Source of the DNA: Streptomyces sp. ICBB 8177
GTDB lineage: Bacteria > Actinomycetota > Actinomycetes > Streptomycetales > Streptomycetaceae
Assembly (NCBI RefSeq): GCF_003144095.1
Contig: NZ_NSKH01000018.1
Span: forward strand, 932,743-996,742
DNA: 64,000 nucleotides
Direction: 5' to 3'
Shown here one piece after another: positions 48,201 through 53,901 of the stretch (position 1 is the stretch's first letter; every line of letters starts with the position of its first letter). The position numbers were made by a program, and so were the translations under genes. Under the pieces are notes generated by a model. The model ran no database searches. It saw nothing but the letters and a program-made list of their open reading frames with translations, and was not told the DNA's origin.

Positions 48201-49706
48201 TCAGTGCTCCTCCAGCCGCAGCGCCAGCGCCGGGCAGCGGCGGATCGCGCGCAGCGCCTGGGTCTTCAGGTGGGCCGGCAGCGCCATGTTGGCCAGCGCC
48301 GGGTAGCCGTCCGGATCGAGCCTGATGACCTCCGGAAGGATGTCCGCGCACAGGCCGTGCCCGTCGCAGAGCGTCCAGTCGACCATCAACTGCTCGGTCG
48401 GCTCCTCGCGCGGCAGCGGCAGCACCCCGGTCACCGGGCGCCCGCAGCCGCCGCCCAGCACGTGCGCCGCCAGGTCGTCGGTGAAGACGGCGAGCGCGGA
48501 GCGCACGAAGCGGGAGGTGCCGTCCGGATGCGAGCAGGCACCGCGCCTGCGGACGGTCTGCGCGACCCGCCGCAACGCCTCCAGCGCGGCCTGCCCGCCG
48601 CCCCCGAGCACCTCCGACAGCGCGGCGGCGACGCTCGGCAGGCCCAGGCGGCACGGACCGCACTGGGCCGCCGACTCCGCCGCCAGCCACTGGGCGACCC
48701 GCAACGTCTCGCCCAGCGGGCACAGTTCGGGGGACAGCGGTGCCACCCCGCCCGCGCCGAGCGTCGCGCCGTGCGCGTTCATCCCGGCCCGGGACACCGC
48801 GGCGACCGACGCCGCGCTGGGGTCGAGCCAGCCGCCGTGGTAGCCGCCGACCAGCACCCCCTGCCCGATCCCCGAGCCGCAGGCGTGCAGCACGTAGCTG
48901 AGCGGCACCCCGCTGGGCACCTCGACCAGCATCGGACGCGGCACGGAACCGGTCACCGTCAGCAGTACCGTCCCGGGCTCCTCCGGCGTACCCGCGTGGG
49001 CGTAGCGGGCGGCGCCCAGGCGCGCGGCGACGGCGAGTTGGGCGTACGTCTCGGTGTTGGACAGCAGCGTGGGCAGGCCGTCGACGCCGGACTCGCTGGC
49101 GTGCGTGCGGCGGCCCGCTGGCAGCGGCACCTCGTCGTTGGCGCCGCGGATGATGGAACTGGCCTCGCCCGAAACGAAGCGCTCCGGCATGCGCAGCACC
49201 TGCGCCCGCAACGTGCGACCGCGCCGGTCGTCCAGGCCGCGTTCCTCCAACGCGGCCCGTACGGAGGCCTCCAGCGGGTCGCGGGTGACCGCGACGATCA
49301 GGCGTTCCGCGCCGAGGGCCTCGGCGACGAGCAGCGCGCCGTCCAGCACCAGGTGCGGCGACCGGGTCAGCAGCGCGGTGTCCTTGCGGCAGGCGGGCTC
49401 GCCCTCGCAGCCGTTGACGACGACGGCCGTACGGCACGAGCGCGCCCGCGCGGCGGTGGCCACCGCGCGCAGCTTGCGGGCGAACGGGAAGGCGGCGCCG
49501 CCGCGACCGCGCAGGTCGATCGACTCGGCGAGCGTCTCGACCTCGGCCGCCGGAAGCAGCGGCAGCGTGCCGTGCACGGAGTGGTGGGTGGCCAGGTCGA
49601 GCCGCGAGGCGATGTCGAACCCGGCGGTCAGCCGGGGCACTCCGAGGGTGTGCACGGCGAGCGGCGCGTCGGGCGGAGGGGTGGAGGTCCGTGCGGGCAG
49701 GTTCAC
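48201..49706 (-). CDS. NuoF-like NADH dehydrogenase flavoprotein with fused ferredoxin domain
   Basis: From GTG 49706 this is 501 residues. The FMN/NADH region resembles NuoF: RGRGGAAFPFARKLRAV near residue 65, GCEGEPACRKDTALL, and GEASSIIRG followed by GLPTLLSNTETYAQLA. An SLBB-like stretch follows (LVEVPSGVPLSYVLHACG). The iron-sulfur motif reads ESAAQCGPCRLG and GACSHPDG, so the first of the four NuoF N3 cysteines is Ala. The last 60 residues form a ferredoxin-like domain (LCDGHGLCADILPEV, RRCPALAL). It would take electrons from NADH (or supply them) and pass them through FMN and clusters to the heme-b membrane protein encoded just upstream, whose stop overlaps this start (GTGA). The overall pathway is unknown. 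Confidence 0.82.
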   Translation of the reverse strand: MNLPARTSTPPPDAPLAVHTLGVPRLTAGFDIASRLDLATHHSVHGTLPLLPAAEVETLAESIDLRGRGGAAFPFARKLRAVATAARARSCRTAVVVNGCEGEPACRKDTALLTRSPHLVLDGALLVAEALGAERLIVAVTRDPLEASVRAALEERGLDDRRGRTLRAQVLRMPERFVSGEASSIIRGANDEVPLPAGRRTHASESGVDGLPTLLSNTETYAQLAVAARLGAARYAHAGTPEEPGTVLLTVTGSVPRPMLVEVPSGVPLSYVLHACGSGIGQGVLVGGYHGGWLDPSAASVAAVSRAGMNAHGATLGAGGVAPLSPELCPLGETLRVAQWLAAESAAQCGPCRLGLPSVAAALSEVLGGGGQAALEALRRVAQTVRRRGACSHPDGTSRFVRSALAVFTDDLAAHVLGGGCGRPVTGVLPLPREEPTEQLMVDWTLCDGHGLCADILPEVIRLDPDGYPALANMALPAHLKTQALRAIRRCPALALRLEEH

Positions 49707-51460
49707 CGGTGGCCTTCGCTGTGGGGGAGGGGGTCGCTCGCGGGCGTGGCGGCGGAGGGCTGGTGCGTGGCGTCGCTCCACGGCTCGCCGCCGCGCGGGC
49801 CGGCGCCCGACGGGGCGCTCCAGGGCTCGCCCGGCCGGGGCCCGGCGCTCCACGGGTCGGCGTGGGCGGCGCGCGCGTCGGGAGCCTCCTGGGGTTCCGC
49901 GGTGTGGCCGAACGCCTGTGGCTCGTCGAGGCCGTAGGCGTGCCGGGTCTCGTGCGCCGGGGCGGGCTCGTGGACCCCGTACGGGTCCGTGGCGTAGGCG
50001 GAGGCGGGTGCCGGGTGAGGGGCGTGGCCGATGCCGGGGGCGGGAACCTCCGTCAGCCCCGTGCCGGGGAGGCTCTCCGCGCCGTGCGCGCCGTGAGCGC
50101 TGTGCGCGCCGTAGGCGCCCTGATCGGCGCCGAACGGGTCCGGGGCCGCGGGGGCGTGCGCCGCCCGGCCGAAGGAGCCTGCGGGCCCGCTGTACCCGGG
50201 GGCCTGGCCGGTCAGGTCGTCGGCGGCCGTGCGCGCGCCGGGTATGCCGCCGCCGGGTATGCCGCCGCCGAGCCCCGCACCGCCGGTCAGGCCGGAACCG
50301 AGTCCCGCCCCGGCTGACAGGCCCGCGCCCGCGGCCTGCCCGGCGTCCGGCGCGAGTCCCGTGCCCGCCGCGAGTCCCGCCGCCGCACCGGCCCTCGTTC
50401 CCCCGCCGCGCCCGCGGGCCCCGCGCCGCACTCCGCCCGCCGCGCGGCGTGCCCCCGCGCCCGCGCGATGGCGTACCGCCGCGAGCCCCCGCCCCGGGGC
50501 GCCCAGCCGGGACGGTCCCGCCGAACGTCCCGCGTCAGCGGTGCGGCAGACCGCGGGCCGGTCCATCACGGCGCCGTCGCGCACGTGCGTCCGCCAGCGG
50601 ACCACCAGCGCCACGCACACGCCGATGACGCACAGGATGTAGGAGGCGTTGACCCAGCCCGCCGCCGAGCGGCCCGCCTTGAGCCCGTGCAGCAGGCCGG
50701 TGAACCACGCCGGGTAGGCGCACGCGTGCAGCATCCGCCAGCGCCCGGCGTGCCCGCGTGCCGCGAACGCGCCGCGCAGCACTCCGGTGGCGACGGACAG
50801 GACCAGCAGGTAGCCGGCCACCACGCCGAGACCGATGAGGAACCGCTCGCGCCCTCCGCTGAACGGCACGAGAGCCGCCACGAGGGAGACGTGCGCCTCG
50901 CCGACCTTCACCGACACGTGCAGGATCAGGAAGCCGAACGCGGCCACGGCGGTGGCCCGGTGCAGCGCCTGCGTGGCGATGCGGTGGCGCGGGCCGAGCA
51001 GCGAGGTGCCGGTGCACATCAAGCCGTAGACGACCGTGGAGGTCAGCGAGACGAGGGTGAACACGCCCGCGCCGTAGTCGAGGAAGCGCCGCGGTCCCGA
51101 GCCCGTCGCCGGCACGAGGGCGAGCACCACGACGACGGCCGCGGTGACGGTGAGCAGCACGCCGGCGGGTATCCGGGAGGCGGCGGCCGGGCCGCCCGCG
51201 CCGGGCGTTCCGGCCGGCCCGAGCAGCCGGGCCGTCCACGGCGCGTACCGCTCCAGCGCTCTTAAGGGCGCAGTGGGGGAGTACCGCGAAGGCGGCGAGG
51301 AGGCCCCGGACTTCGTGGACGCCGACGGATTCGCGAACTGTGTGGACTTCACGAAAGAGGAGAACACCGCGAAAGCGGACCGCGGGGTGGATGTGGGGGA
51401 GGATGCGGACGAAGCGCGCCGCCGCCTGCCCCCGCCGCCGTGTTGAGGGTTGATGCGCAT
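49703..51460 (-). CDS. Ferric-reductase-like heme b membrane protein with long disordered tail
   Basis: A 585-residue protein. Six membrane helices lie between residues about 97 and 290. Histidines 167 (ALHRAT), 181 (LILHVSV), 245 (RMLHACAYP) and 258 (LLHGLKA) give the two His-x13-14-His pairs expected for two hemes of the ferric-reductase-like domain. Residues about 300-585 are Gly/Ala/Pro-rich and disordered, with GAGL repeats, GAHSAHGAHGAES and repeated EPWS units. It should carry electrons across the membrane to an unknown acceptor and is translationally coupled to the NuoF-like gene. CCGGAGA is eight bases before ATG 51460. No Rieske or c-type partner is seen. Confidence 0.82.
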   Translation of the reverse strand: MRINPQHGGGGRRRRASSASSPTSTPRSAFAVFSSFVKSTQFANPSASTKSGASSPPSRYSPTAPLRALERYAPWTARLLGPAGTPGAGGPAAASRIPAGVLLTVTAAVVVVLALVPATGSGPRRFLDYGAGVFTLVSLTSTVVYGLMCTGTSLLGPRHRIATQALHRATAVAAFGFLILHVSVKVGEAHVSLVAALVPFSGGRERFLIGLGVVAGYLLVLSVATGVLRGAFAARGHAGRWRMLHACAYPAWFTGLLHGLKAGRSAAGWVNASYILCVIGVCVALVVRWRTHVRDGAVMDRPAVCRTADAGRSAGPSRLGAPGRGLAAVRHRAGAGARRAAGGVRRGARGRGGGTRAGAAAGLAAGTGLAPDAGQAAGAGLSAGAGLGSGLTGGAGLGGGIPGGGIPGARTAADDLTGQAPGYSGPAGSFGRAAHAPAAPDPFGADQGAYGAHSAHGAHGAESLPGTGLTEVPAPGIGHAPHPAPASAYATDPYGVHEPAPAHETRHAYGLDEPQAFGHTAEPQEAPDARAAHADPWSAGPRPGEPWSAPSGAGPRGGEPWSDATHQPSAATPASDPLPHSEGHR

Positions 51461-51888
51461 GGTGGTTTTCTCCGGCAGCCGTTGGGGGATACGGGGGAGT
51501 TGATGGCTGACGCTAAGCCGCTACCGCAGGTATGGCACCAGGCTTGCCGCAACTGCGTTCGTGTGGGCCGTCACACTGCTAACGTCATGTCAATTGATGC
51601 TCTACGGAGCGGAGTTGACGTCCGTCGAACCGGGTGGCGGAACCTTTCCCCAGCGTCCTACCAGGGACCGTTCAGTACGGACGGGCCTGCGCCAACTTCT
51701 CAGCCATTACTTTCACTTGACCATTTCTTGAACGGATCATGTCCCTGACGTGGACAGATCAGCGACAGAGTTTCGCTTTGTGCGGAGGTACCTCACCGGT
51801 ATCCGGTGAACCCGCTCCGCGGTTCGCGACGCATCTCGACCAAGCGACGCGACGCATTTACGCGACGATCCGTTTCGCTGGGGGTTTC
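51461..51888. other. Divergent intergenic region ahead of the S53 peptidase
   Basis: 428 bases, AT-richer than average, with no gene. It includes the perfect palindrome TCAATTGA near 51590, and -35-like elements such as TTGACC near 51717. It must hold the promoters of both the flavocytochrome pair and the peptidase; I cannot assign them with confidence. Confidence 0.5.
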
Positions 51889-53901
51889 ATGAAGCTTGTC
51901 CGCTCTAGAACTCGCGCCGGACTGGCGGTGGCGGCAACCCTGCCGCTGGTCGCCGGCGCACTGGCGATGGGCATACCCAACGCCCAGGCCGACACGGCGC
52001 ACGGGCGCCAGGTGATCGCCAACACCAAGCCGTCCTGGGCCACGTCCAACGCCGACCACGGTACGGCCGCCGCCTCCACCAAGGTCGATCTGCGCGTCTA
52101 CCTGGCCGGTGACGCCAAGGGCCTCGCCGCCTACGCGCAAGCGGTCTCCGACCCCAGCTCGGCGAGCTACCACAAGTACCTGTCCGCCAAGCAGGCCCAG
52201 GCCCGCTTCGGCGCCACCAAGCAGCAGATCGCCGAGGTCACCGCCTGGCTGAAGTCGTCGGGCCTGAAGGTCACCGGCTCCAACCAGCACTACGTGTCGG
52301 TCTCCGGCGACCGGACGTCCGTCGAGAAGGCGTTCAACGTCCAGCTGCACAACTACTCGGTGGGCGGCCACGTCTACCACGCGCCGTCCGCCTCGGCCAC
52401 GGTGCCCGCCTCGCTGAACGGCGCCGTGCTGACCGTCACCGGTCTGAACAACGCCCCGGCCAAGGCCCAGACCGACGCCACCGTCGGCGCCGCCACCAAC
52501 GGCACGACCCCGGGCGCGTCCACCCCGGGCGACCAGCTGCCGCCGCCCTCCGCGGTGTTCAAGAACGCCGGTCCGTTCTCCACGTACTACGGCTCGAACA
52601 CCGACAACAAGCTGCCGTCCGCGTTCGGCTCCAAGGCGCCCTACGCGATCAAGGGCTACACCGGCAAGCAGCTGCGTGCCGCCTACGGCGCGGGCAAGTA
52701 CACCGGCAAGGGCGTGACGGTGGCGATCACCGACGCGTACGCCTCGCCGTACATCGCCCAGGACGCCGCCGAGTACGCCAAGCGCAACGGCGACGCCCCG
52801 TACAAGAAGGGCCAGCTGACCCAGGTCCTGCCCGGCAGCTACAACAGCACCGCGCCCAACCAGTGCGGCGCGGCCGGCTGGTACGGCGAGGAGACCCTGG
52901 ACGTCGAGGCGGTGCACGCGGTGGCCCCGGCCGCCGACATCACCTACGTCGGCGCGGCCTCCTGCAACGACCCGGACCTGCTCGACGCCCTGTCCAAGGT
53001 CGTCGACAGCCACCTGGCCGACATCGTCTCCAACTCCTGGAGCGACGTCGAGTCCAACGCCACCCCCGACTCGACGGCCGCCTACGACCAGGTCTTCGAG
53101 CAGGGCGCGGTCGAGGGCATCGGCTTCTACTTCTCCTCCGGTGACGACGGCGACTACGTCGCGGCCAGCGGCAAGAAGGACATCGGCGCCCCCTCCGACT
53201 CCCCGTGGGCCACCGCGGTCGGCGGCACCTCGCTCGCCGTCGGCAAGGGGAACACGTACGAGTGGGAGACCGGCTGGGGCACCGACAAGTCGGTGCTGTC
53301 GGCCGACGGCAAGTCCTGGACCGGCTTCCCCGGCACCTTCAGCTCCGGCGCGGGCGGCGGCACCAGCACCCTCTACAGCCAGCCGTTCTACCAGCGCGGC
53401 GTCGTGCCGACCTCGCTCAGCGAGGCCAACGGCACCAAGTCCCCGATGCGCGTCATCCCGGACATCTCCGCGGTCGCCGACCCGACCACCGGCTTCCTGG
53501 TCGGCCAGTCGCAGAGCTTCCCGGACAAGTCGATCAAGTACAGCGAGTACCGCATCGGCGGCACCTCGCTGGCCTGCCCGGTGACCGCCGCCGTCCAGGC
53601 GCTGGCCCAGCAGGCCCAGGGCGGCGTGCCGATCGGCTTCGCCAACCCGTCGATCTACGAGCGGTACGGCACGCCCGCGTTCCACGACGTGACCGACCAC
53701 CCGCTGGGTCAGGGCAAGGGCATCGCCGACGTCCGCGTCGACTTCGCCAACAGCATCGACGCCAGCGGCGGCCTGATCACCTCGCTGCGCACCCTCGGCA
53801 CCGACAGCTCGCTGCACGCCACCGTCGGCTACGACAACGTCACCGGCGTCGGCACCCCGGGTGCGGGCTACGTGAAGTCGTACGTCCCCGGCAAGCACTG
53901 A
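51889..53901 (+). CDS. Secreted S53 (sedolisin/kumamolisin-like) serine-carboxyl peptidase
   Basis: A 670-residue preproenzyme. Residues 1-35 are a Sec signal (RAGLAVAATLPLVAGALAMG, ending AQA-D). Residues about 40-200 are the pro-kumamolisin activation domain (YHKYLSAKQAQARFGATKQQ, VEKAFNVQLHNYSVGG). The catalytic domain has Glu334 and Asp338 in EETLDVEAVHAVAP, the oxyanion region SSGDDGDY and Ser560 in GGTSLACP. Sedolisins are acid-active peptidases that self-cleave their prodomain. The calcium site near the C-terminus seems present (VTGVGTPGAG). The start ATG 51889 has GGGGG before it. The gene is followed by the leuS leader. Confidence 0.93.
   Translation: MKLVRSRTRAGLAVAATLPLVAGALAMGIPNAQADTAHGRQVIANTKPSWATSNADHGTAAASTKVDLRVYLAGDAKGLAAYAQAVSDPSSASYHKYLSAKQAQARFGATKQQIAEVTAWLKSSGLKVTGSNQHYVSVSGDRTSVEKAFNVQLHNYSVGGHVYHAPSASATVPASLNGAVLTVTGLNNAPAKAQTDATVGAATNGTTPGASTPGDQLPPPSAVFKNAGPFSTYYGSNTDNKLPSAFGSKAPYAIKGYTGKQLRAAYGAGKYTGKGVTVAITDAYASPYIAQDAAEYAKRNGDAPYKKGQLTQVLPGSYNSTAPNQCGAAGWYGEETLDVEAVHAVAPAADITYVGAASCNDPDLLDALSKVVDSHLADIVSNSWSDVESNATPDSTAAYDQVFEQGAVEGIGFYFSSGDDGDYVAASGKKDIGAPSDSPWATAVGGTSLAVGKGNTYEWETGWGTDKSVLSADGKSWTGFPGTFSSGAGGGTSTLYSQPFYQRGVVPTSLSEANGTKSPMRVIPDISAVADPTTGFLVGQSQSFPDKSIKYSEYRIGGTSLACPVTAAVQALAQQAQGGVPIGFANPSIYERYGTPAFHDVTDHPLGQGKGIADVRVDFANSIDASGGLITSLRTLGTDSSLHATVGYDNVTGVGTPGAGYVKSYVPGKH

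Follow-up and report, generated by a model that had tools for sequence, protein, structure and literature searches.

A co-conserved Streptomyces gene pair for a NuoF-like flavoprotein with fused ferredoxin and a four-histidine membrane protein, a proposed NADH-driven electron exporter

We analysed a stretch of 64,000 nucleotides (the window) from Streptomyces sp. ICBB 8177 (family Streptomycetaceae; assembly GCF_003144095.1, contig NZ_NSKH01000018.1), in which two overlapping reverse-strand genes encode a membrane protein of the ferric-reductase/MsrQ-like kind and, downstream, a NuoF-like flavoprotein that ends in a ferredoxin domain (Table 1). The membrane gene has two possible starts, 51460 in the open reading frame list and 51367 from the gene caller. 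For the NuoF-like gene the longest frame, 48201..49853(-), would give 550 residues, and the gene caller picked a GTG at 49706. The GTGA overlap of the two genes, described in an initial annotation of this DNA, was confirmed in the window, and of the 68 orthologous pairs whose overlap could be measured, 52 overlap by exactly 4 bases. The same annotation had called the pair self-contained; in agreement with this, no Nuo gene was recognised beside it by Pfam among the called genes, and the canonical NuoF of the genome lies on contig C22 with a NuoE- and NuoG-like neighbour.

Table 1. Features of the gene pair in the window.
Feature	Position	Strand	Basis or remark
Membrane protein gene, ferric-reductase/MsrQ-like	49703..51460	(-)	585 residues; alternative start 51367 gives 554 residues
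NuoF-like flavoprotein with C-terminal ferredoxin	48201..49706	(-)	501 residues; Pfam and NCBIfam, model, Foldseek
GTGA overlap, membrane-gene stop/NuoF-like start	49703..49706	(-)	sequence
FMN/NADH-binding domain, Complex1_51K, residues 63-224	49035..49520	(-)	Pfam
Ala346 codon, position of the first N3 Cys of canonical NuoF	48669..48671	(-)	A 68, S 1, V 1 of 70
Cys349 codon, N3 ligand	48660..48662	(-)	C in 70/70
Cys352 codon, N3 ligand	48651..48653	(-)	C in 70/70
Cys391 (N3 ligand) to His393 (speculative replacement ligand)	48528..48536	(-)	both 70/70
Ferredoxin domain, CxxHGLC...CP, residues 437-501	48204..48398	(-)	Fer4_15 46.0 bits
Transmembrane core, six helices in the model, all four conserved His	50576..51166	(-)	AlphaFold, predicted local distance difference test (pLDDT) 88.1, predicted template modelling score (pTM) 0.80
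His167 codon, predicted inner-heme ligand	50960..50962	(-)	invariant 69/69; membrane side inferred from charges
His181 codon, predicted outer-heme ligand	50918..50920	(-)	invariant 69/69
His245 codon, predicted inner-heme ligand	50726..50728	(-)	invariant 69/69
His258 codon, predicted outer-heme ligand	50687..50689	(-)	invariant 69/69
C-terminal A/G/P-rich tail, about residues 291-585, predicted cytosolic	49706..50590	(-)	composition, G+C at third codon positions (GC3)

Among 150 sampled genomes of the family, both genes were found in the identical set of 69, with thresholds of E ≤ 2.7e-46 for the membrane protein and E ≤ 1.3e-184 for the NuoF-like protein. Thirteen of these genomes were used for profile building and 56 were independent. 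The counts exclude G049, in which both genes are fragmentary at contig ends, G159, G071 and the weaker matches of type 2; here type 1 denotes the window's branch and type 2 the sister clusters with a separate ferredoxin gene. Of 77 membrane-gene loci, 69 had the NuoF gene directly behind the membrane gene and in the same orientation. The remaining eight comprised two cut by contig ends (G151, G011), a ferredoxin fusion (G008), a locus with a NuoF remnant (G042), and solo membrane genes in four genomes (G094, G014, G157, G079). Distance matrices of the two proteins correlated at 0.88 across loci, a value reached in none of 999 permutations and due in part to shared species history. The initial annotation had read the pair as a coupled NADH-dehydrogenase-like flavoprotein and four-His membrane protein and had proposed co-conservation as one check; this strong co-conservation supports the reading. 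In named genomes at least 585 relatives were found, and 79 of the 80 kept were from Streptomyces. The counterparts in S. coelicolor may be SCO2571-SCO2573.

The NuoF-like protein matched Complex1_51K (95.4 bits), NADH_4Fe-4S (PF10589, 58.2 bits) and Fer4_15, all above cut-off, while a match to SLBB fell slightly under it (23.2 bits, cut-off 27) and the NCBIfam NuoF equivalog TIGR01959 was not reached (141.5 vs 558.65 bits required). Its model (pLDDT 91.9, pTM 0.87) was matched by Foldseek to NuoF, HydB and NfnB, with a best E-value of 1.7e-29 (9mqx_B). The motifs for flavin mononucleotide (FMN) and reduced nicotinamide adenine dinucleotide (NADH), noticed already in the first reading, are conserved in the orthologues (GRGGA-x-FP, E101, E103, N217, E219), and binding of both FMN and NADH is predicted. 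In NuoF the NADH site holds FMN, which passes electrons on to the iron-sulfur cluster N3. The FMN/NADH and N3-region fold is common to the window protein, NuoF of complex I and HydB-NfnB of bifurcating enzymes; complex I NuoF has four N3 cysteines, whereas the window protein has three, no NuoE partner and a single CxxHxxC ferredoxin.

The substitution of Ala for the first N3 ligand (ESAAQCGPC) is real. Position 346 is never Cys in the 70 orthologues and is Cys in the canonical NuoF of the same genome. The first N3 Cys was also absent from all 12 related proteins of the NuoF-like kind, which come from sister clusters or are paralogues in the same genome, so that its loss is a hallmark of the whole group and not of the window gene alone. 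Residue 393 is His in all type-1 proteins and Leu in canonical NuoF, and from this pattern one might speculate that His393 replaces the missing ligand; an own-genome paralogue (L008) without the first N3 Cys and without His393 weakens the idea. Cys329 was considered as a compensating ligand and rejected because it is present in canonical NuoF too.

The C-terminal ferredoxin domain, likewise part of the initial annotation, is borne out by the Fer4_15 match and by C447, H450, C453 and C491, which are present in 70/70 orthologues. HydB-type proteins also end in ferredoxin domains. The window motif CDGHGLC...CP fits CXXHXXC(X)nCP, and ferredoxins with this motif are reported to hold a [3Fe-4S] cluster, the M. 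tuberculosis protein having a potential of about -31 mV and other CXXHXXC ferredoxins being widely spread, from -340 to +230 mV (PMC6237146). By analogy, the window ferredoxin probably carries [3Fe-4S], and a potential like that of the M. tuberculosis protein would fit a step between NADH and heme b. Two paralogues were observed in the same genome. L008 (6810-10374) lacks a membrane partner and encodes a NuoF-like protein and ferredoxin next to a gene for a Rieske ring-hydroxylating oxygenase, and L007 (7505-9500) consists of a short membrane gene without the first His pair, followed by a NuoF-like and a separate ferredoxin gene, in surroundings with a two-component pair and Ni-dependent hydrogenase genes.

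Membrane domains of ferric reductases and NADPH oxidases (NOX) hold two hemes b stacked between two helices. The two His pairs (167/181 and 245/258) of the initial annotation aligned as pairs with spacings of 14 and 13, and in a 24-row alignment these four positions were the sole columns with His in at least 8 rows. From the sequence pattern, the membrane protein is predicted to bind heme b, and helix charges suggest that His167 and His245 lie on the cytosolic side and His181 and His258 outside. Two His pairs in two helices are shared with NADPH oxidases, STEAP proteins and ferric reductases, and the six-helix model may resemble STEAP, SpNOX and NOX5; unlike these, the window protein has no fused FAD/NAD domain (FAD, flavin adenine dinucleotide), and electrons would come from an iron-sulfur protein.

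At the profile level, PF01794 (Ferric_reduct) matched 10 of 13 orthologous cores at E ≤ 1 (best E 2.1e-4), and its cut-off was not reached by two type-1 orthologues scanned with Pfam. Three membrane proteins of sister clusters scored 32.4, 30.5 and 27.9 bits (cut-off 28), and hhalign aligned the profile of the 13 cores to eight sister (A3) proteins over 166 columns with a probability of 99.6 and an E-value of 7.1e-24. No match was obtained at E ≤ 10 when the membrane-protein profile was searched against solved structures, or at E ≤ 1 when the full protein was searched with phmmer.

With the motifs conserved and the two genes strictly co-conserved, we consider it likely that together they encode an NADH-driven exporter of electrons across the membrane. 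In such a system NADH would reduce FMN in the NuoF-like domain, and electrons would move to the N3-like iron-sulfur site without its first Cys and from this altered site to the C-terminal single-cluster ferredoxin. The ferredoxin would dock on the membrane protein and reduce the cytosol-facing heme b (His167/His245), which would pass electrons to the outer heme b (His181/His258) and thereby to an acceptor outside the membrane. We infer these cofactors, the order and direction of transfer and the acceptor, the outward direction being derived from the potentials. The ferredoxin is suggested as the heme donor because the membrane protein family has one member (L058) that is joined directly to a ferredoxin, without NuoF.

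Several observations weigh against this interpretation. Six of the 77 membrane-gene loci are solo or decayed copies, with two more cut by contig ends, and G159 and G071 hold NuoF fragments without a match to the membrane profile. PF01794 scored only weakly on the window membrane protein itself (11.9 bits, cut-off 28), and a Foldseek search of its model against the PDB gave nothing at E ≤ 0.001 (best 0.011, NOX5). The best structural alignments of the core model were to STEAP2 (Z 13.4, root-mean-square deviation 4.2, 171 residues), STEAP4, SpNOX (13.2), STEAP1 and b6f (12.9), all of them heme b proteins, which speaks for the interpretation, but at a Z near 13 that can be reached by unrelated helical bundles; the same list contained unrelated bundles at Z about 10 and a designed protein at 10.4. 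The L008 unit beside a Rieske oxygenase gene means that the ferredoxin could serve soluble oxygenases too, and no acceptor gene is encoded beside the window pair.

The structural matches also bear on what the outer heme would reduce. The His spacing equals that of NOX2, and the similarity to SpNOX and NOX5 would agree with an NADH oxidase of the NOX kind that generates extracellular superoxide; the pair lacks the FAD/NADPH domain of NOX, having NuoF and ferredoxin in its place, and we regard this role as highly improbable. An assimilatory metal reductase, whose outer heme would serve uptake by reducing free or chelated Fe(III) or Cu(II), would be in line with the STEAP metalloreductases among the closest matches and with the link of some MsrQ-like clusters to ferrous iron transport (PMC8238504). 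This is unlikely, given that no transporter, siderophore or iron-regulator gene was recognisable among the called neighbours (iron-box sites were not searched). Quinone binding by MsrQ itself (PMC8238504) and the b6f and b561 folds among the structural matches are compatible with an NADH:menaquinone oxidoreductase, in which the membrane protein would pass electrons to quinone as an alternative respiratory entry; the presence of canonical Nuo genes in the genome and the exported proteins that neighbour related clusters make such a role quite unlikely.

The fused locus L058 (4815-5687(-)), found in genome G008 that also carries a normal pair, shows identities of 60.7% in the core and 63.5% in the ferredoxin, with a Fer4_15 score of 51.0 bits. 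It bears, together with L008, on a further alternative, in which NuoF-ferredoxin supplies P450 or Rieske oxygenases as a general NADH:ferredoxin reductase, the membrane protein being a mere anchor. L008, which adjoins a Rieske oxygenase gene, suggests such a general reductase, and CXXHXXC ferredoxins do serve P450s (PMC6237146). An anchor would have no need of the four heme-ligand His, which are kept in every type-1 membrane protein, and L058 fuses the ferredoxin to the membrane protein without any NuoF; we therefore judge this explanation very unlikely and retain electron export as the preferred one.

The initial annotation had stated that no established pathway uses this pair. This was not supported, since the combination of an MsrQ-like with a NuoF-like protein has already been reported from flavinylation clusters. 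Meheust et al. (2021; PMC8238504) count 1797 flavinylation clusters of the MsrQ-like type, which is widely conserved among Actinobacteria, and in 31 of them the PF01794-type membrane protein is likewise accompanied by a NuoF-like PF10589 protein, with NAD(P)H proposed as the donor. Such systems have an NAD(P)H-oxidising partner, either a PF00175 domain or a NuoF-like protein, and the window pair has one of the latter kind. A second study modelled MsrQ-like and DUF4405 cytochromes in flavinylation systems, and NuoF does not occur in its text (PMC11334425). Flavinylation systems are defined by ApbE or FMN_bind, whereas neither was found in any of the 70 type-1 loci (BLASTP with three single references against called genes, which a very divergent copy could escape). 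The window's branch further differs in the ferredoxin fused to NuoF, in a membrane protein that falls under the PF01794 cut-off, and in either a long, predicted cytosolic tail or DUF4142/DUF1996/Lipoprotein_15 neighbours. Thus the pairing principle is known, and the novelty lies in the branch that does without flavinylation and carries its ferredoxin as part of the NuoF-like protein, of which no description was found in the literature searched, as judged by listings. The sole FMN_bind/ApbE locus of the window's genome, on contig C18, is a classical cluster of a ferric reductase with FAD-binding domain (PF01794 69.5 bits), FMN_bind (37.7 bits), ApbE and two-component genes; it lies on another contig and has no gene in common with the window pair.

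The closest relatives are actinobacterial sister clusters with the order ApbE - membrane - NuoF - ferredoxin (L050-L057, L225-L278), which share the window's gene order, the four His and the missing N3 Cys. They differ in having the ferredoxin as a separate gene and in membrane proteins without the N-terminal extra helix of the window type, some with a C-terminal extracytosolic domain. Among 62 sister membrane-gene loci, a non-random set fetched for matching the membrane or the NuoF profile, NuoF came next in 59, which counts for the pairing, and ApbE was present in 52; no FMN_bind gene was recognisable within five genes. In the 34 loci fetched on a membrane match alone (L225-L258), NuoF came next in 29 and did not in 3, and in L238 and L244 no membrane gene was called.

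Directly upstream of ApbE, the sister clusters L050-L057, L225-L235 and L239-L278 encode a small protein that has a single helix at its N terminus and a low-complexity stretch rich in S/T/G/A/P, ending in [H/Q]-x-[T/S]-[S/T]-G-[G/A]-S, which resembles the ApbE flavinylation motif. This motif is D-x-x-[S/T]-G-A-[S/T], of which seven residues suffice, also as C-terminal tags (PMC12052999). A strict pattern, [ST]G[AG][ST], unfitted except that Gly was allowed for Ala, ended the upstream frame of 33 of 55 ApbE genes vs 9 among 597 other genes of these loci; with a looser one, shaped after the tails had been seen, the counts were 44/55 vs 13/597. The place of the motif's Asp was mostly taken by His (21/44) or Gln (10/44), the motif formed the end of the protein, and those ApbE proteins that were inspected by eye had no N-terminal helix. 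From these sequences, the one-helix protein is a possible 'flavin on a string', a carrier without an FMN_bind domain, for which no description was found in the papers searched. The observation concerns the sister clusters and not the window pair, and suggests an unusual minimal ApbE substrate.

Type-1 pairs occur in different genomic settings. In 38 of the 70 loci, the window included, the pair is near leuS. In 20 others (L059, L060, L062, L066, L068, L070, L071, L105-L115, L117, L118) it stands beside Lipoprotein_15 and DUF1996 genes, joined by DUF4142 in 19 of them and often by a PucR-type regulator; both gene trees unite these 20 in a single split that is modestly supported (0.74 and 0.55). 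Four loci from two other families of the class (L219, L220, L221, L224) likewise have DUF1996 and DUF4142 next to the pair. Away from the leuS loci, the pair is thus most often neighboured by exported proteins, which speaks for electron export, and the DUF4142, DUF1996 and Lipoprotein_15 proteins are candidate envelope electron acceptors. In L222 (9599-11082) and L223 (9735-11284), from the same two families, the pair is followed by a thioredoxin-like and a six-helix DsbD_TM-like gene, Pfam-checked in L222 only, where DsbD_TM scored below cut-off; extracellular thiol reduction may be another outlet there.

The setting also goes with the length of the membrane protein's C-terminal tail. With a composition of 23% A, 20% G and 12% P, the window tail shows the codon bias of coding sequence (GC3 0.91); tails range from 11 to 348 residues among 68 orthologues. 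The median was 50 residues in Lipoprotein_15/DUF1996 loci (n = 20) vs 228.5 in leuS loci (n = 38), with p 4e-9 in a Mann-Whitney test uncorrected for relatedness. The long tail is probably a non-catalytic cytosolic leash. A 997-residue single frame in L048, covering membrane protein, tail and NuoF, was rejected as a fusion and read as a frameshift, real or from assembly, because the frame indicated by codon bias changes within the tail and returns where NuoF begins.

A joint reading of both branches, which we hold as tentative and rather doubtful, would make them a distinct actinobacterial exporter class composed of a reworked-N3 NuoF (three Cys and possibly His393), a [3Fe-4S] ferredoxin and a di-heme b protein. 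One branch would deliver electrons to FMN attached to the final residue of a disordered peptide that is tethered to the membrane. The window's branch would have shed flavinylation and would use DUF1996, DUF4142 or Lipoprotein_15 proteins as acceptors or, in the leuS-linked form, pass electrons directly to some other acceptor, and its long tail would tether the NuoF-ferredoxin head.

How aerobic Gram-positive soil bacteria export electrons is still little understood. If the pair does so, about half of the sampled family genomes (69/150) would carry a compact NADH-to-envelope electron line that would be missed by screens for ApbE, FMN_bind or PF01794. It would also make a naturally altered N3 cluster accessible to study in a simple two-gene system, and would provide testable partners for DUF1996, DUF4142 and Lipoprotein_15, three families of exported proteins whose function is unknown.

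Next to the window pair, the divergent neighbour at 51739-53901(+) encodes a kumamolisin-type (S53-like) protease, recognised by its Pro-kuma_activ domain, and a similar gene was found beside 15 of the 70 type-1 loci.

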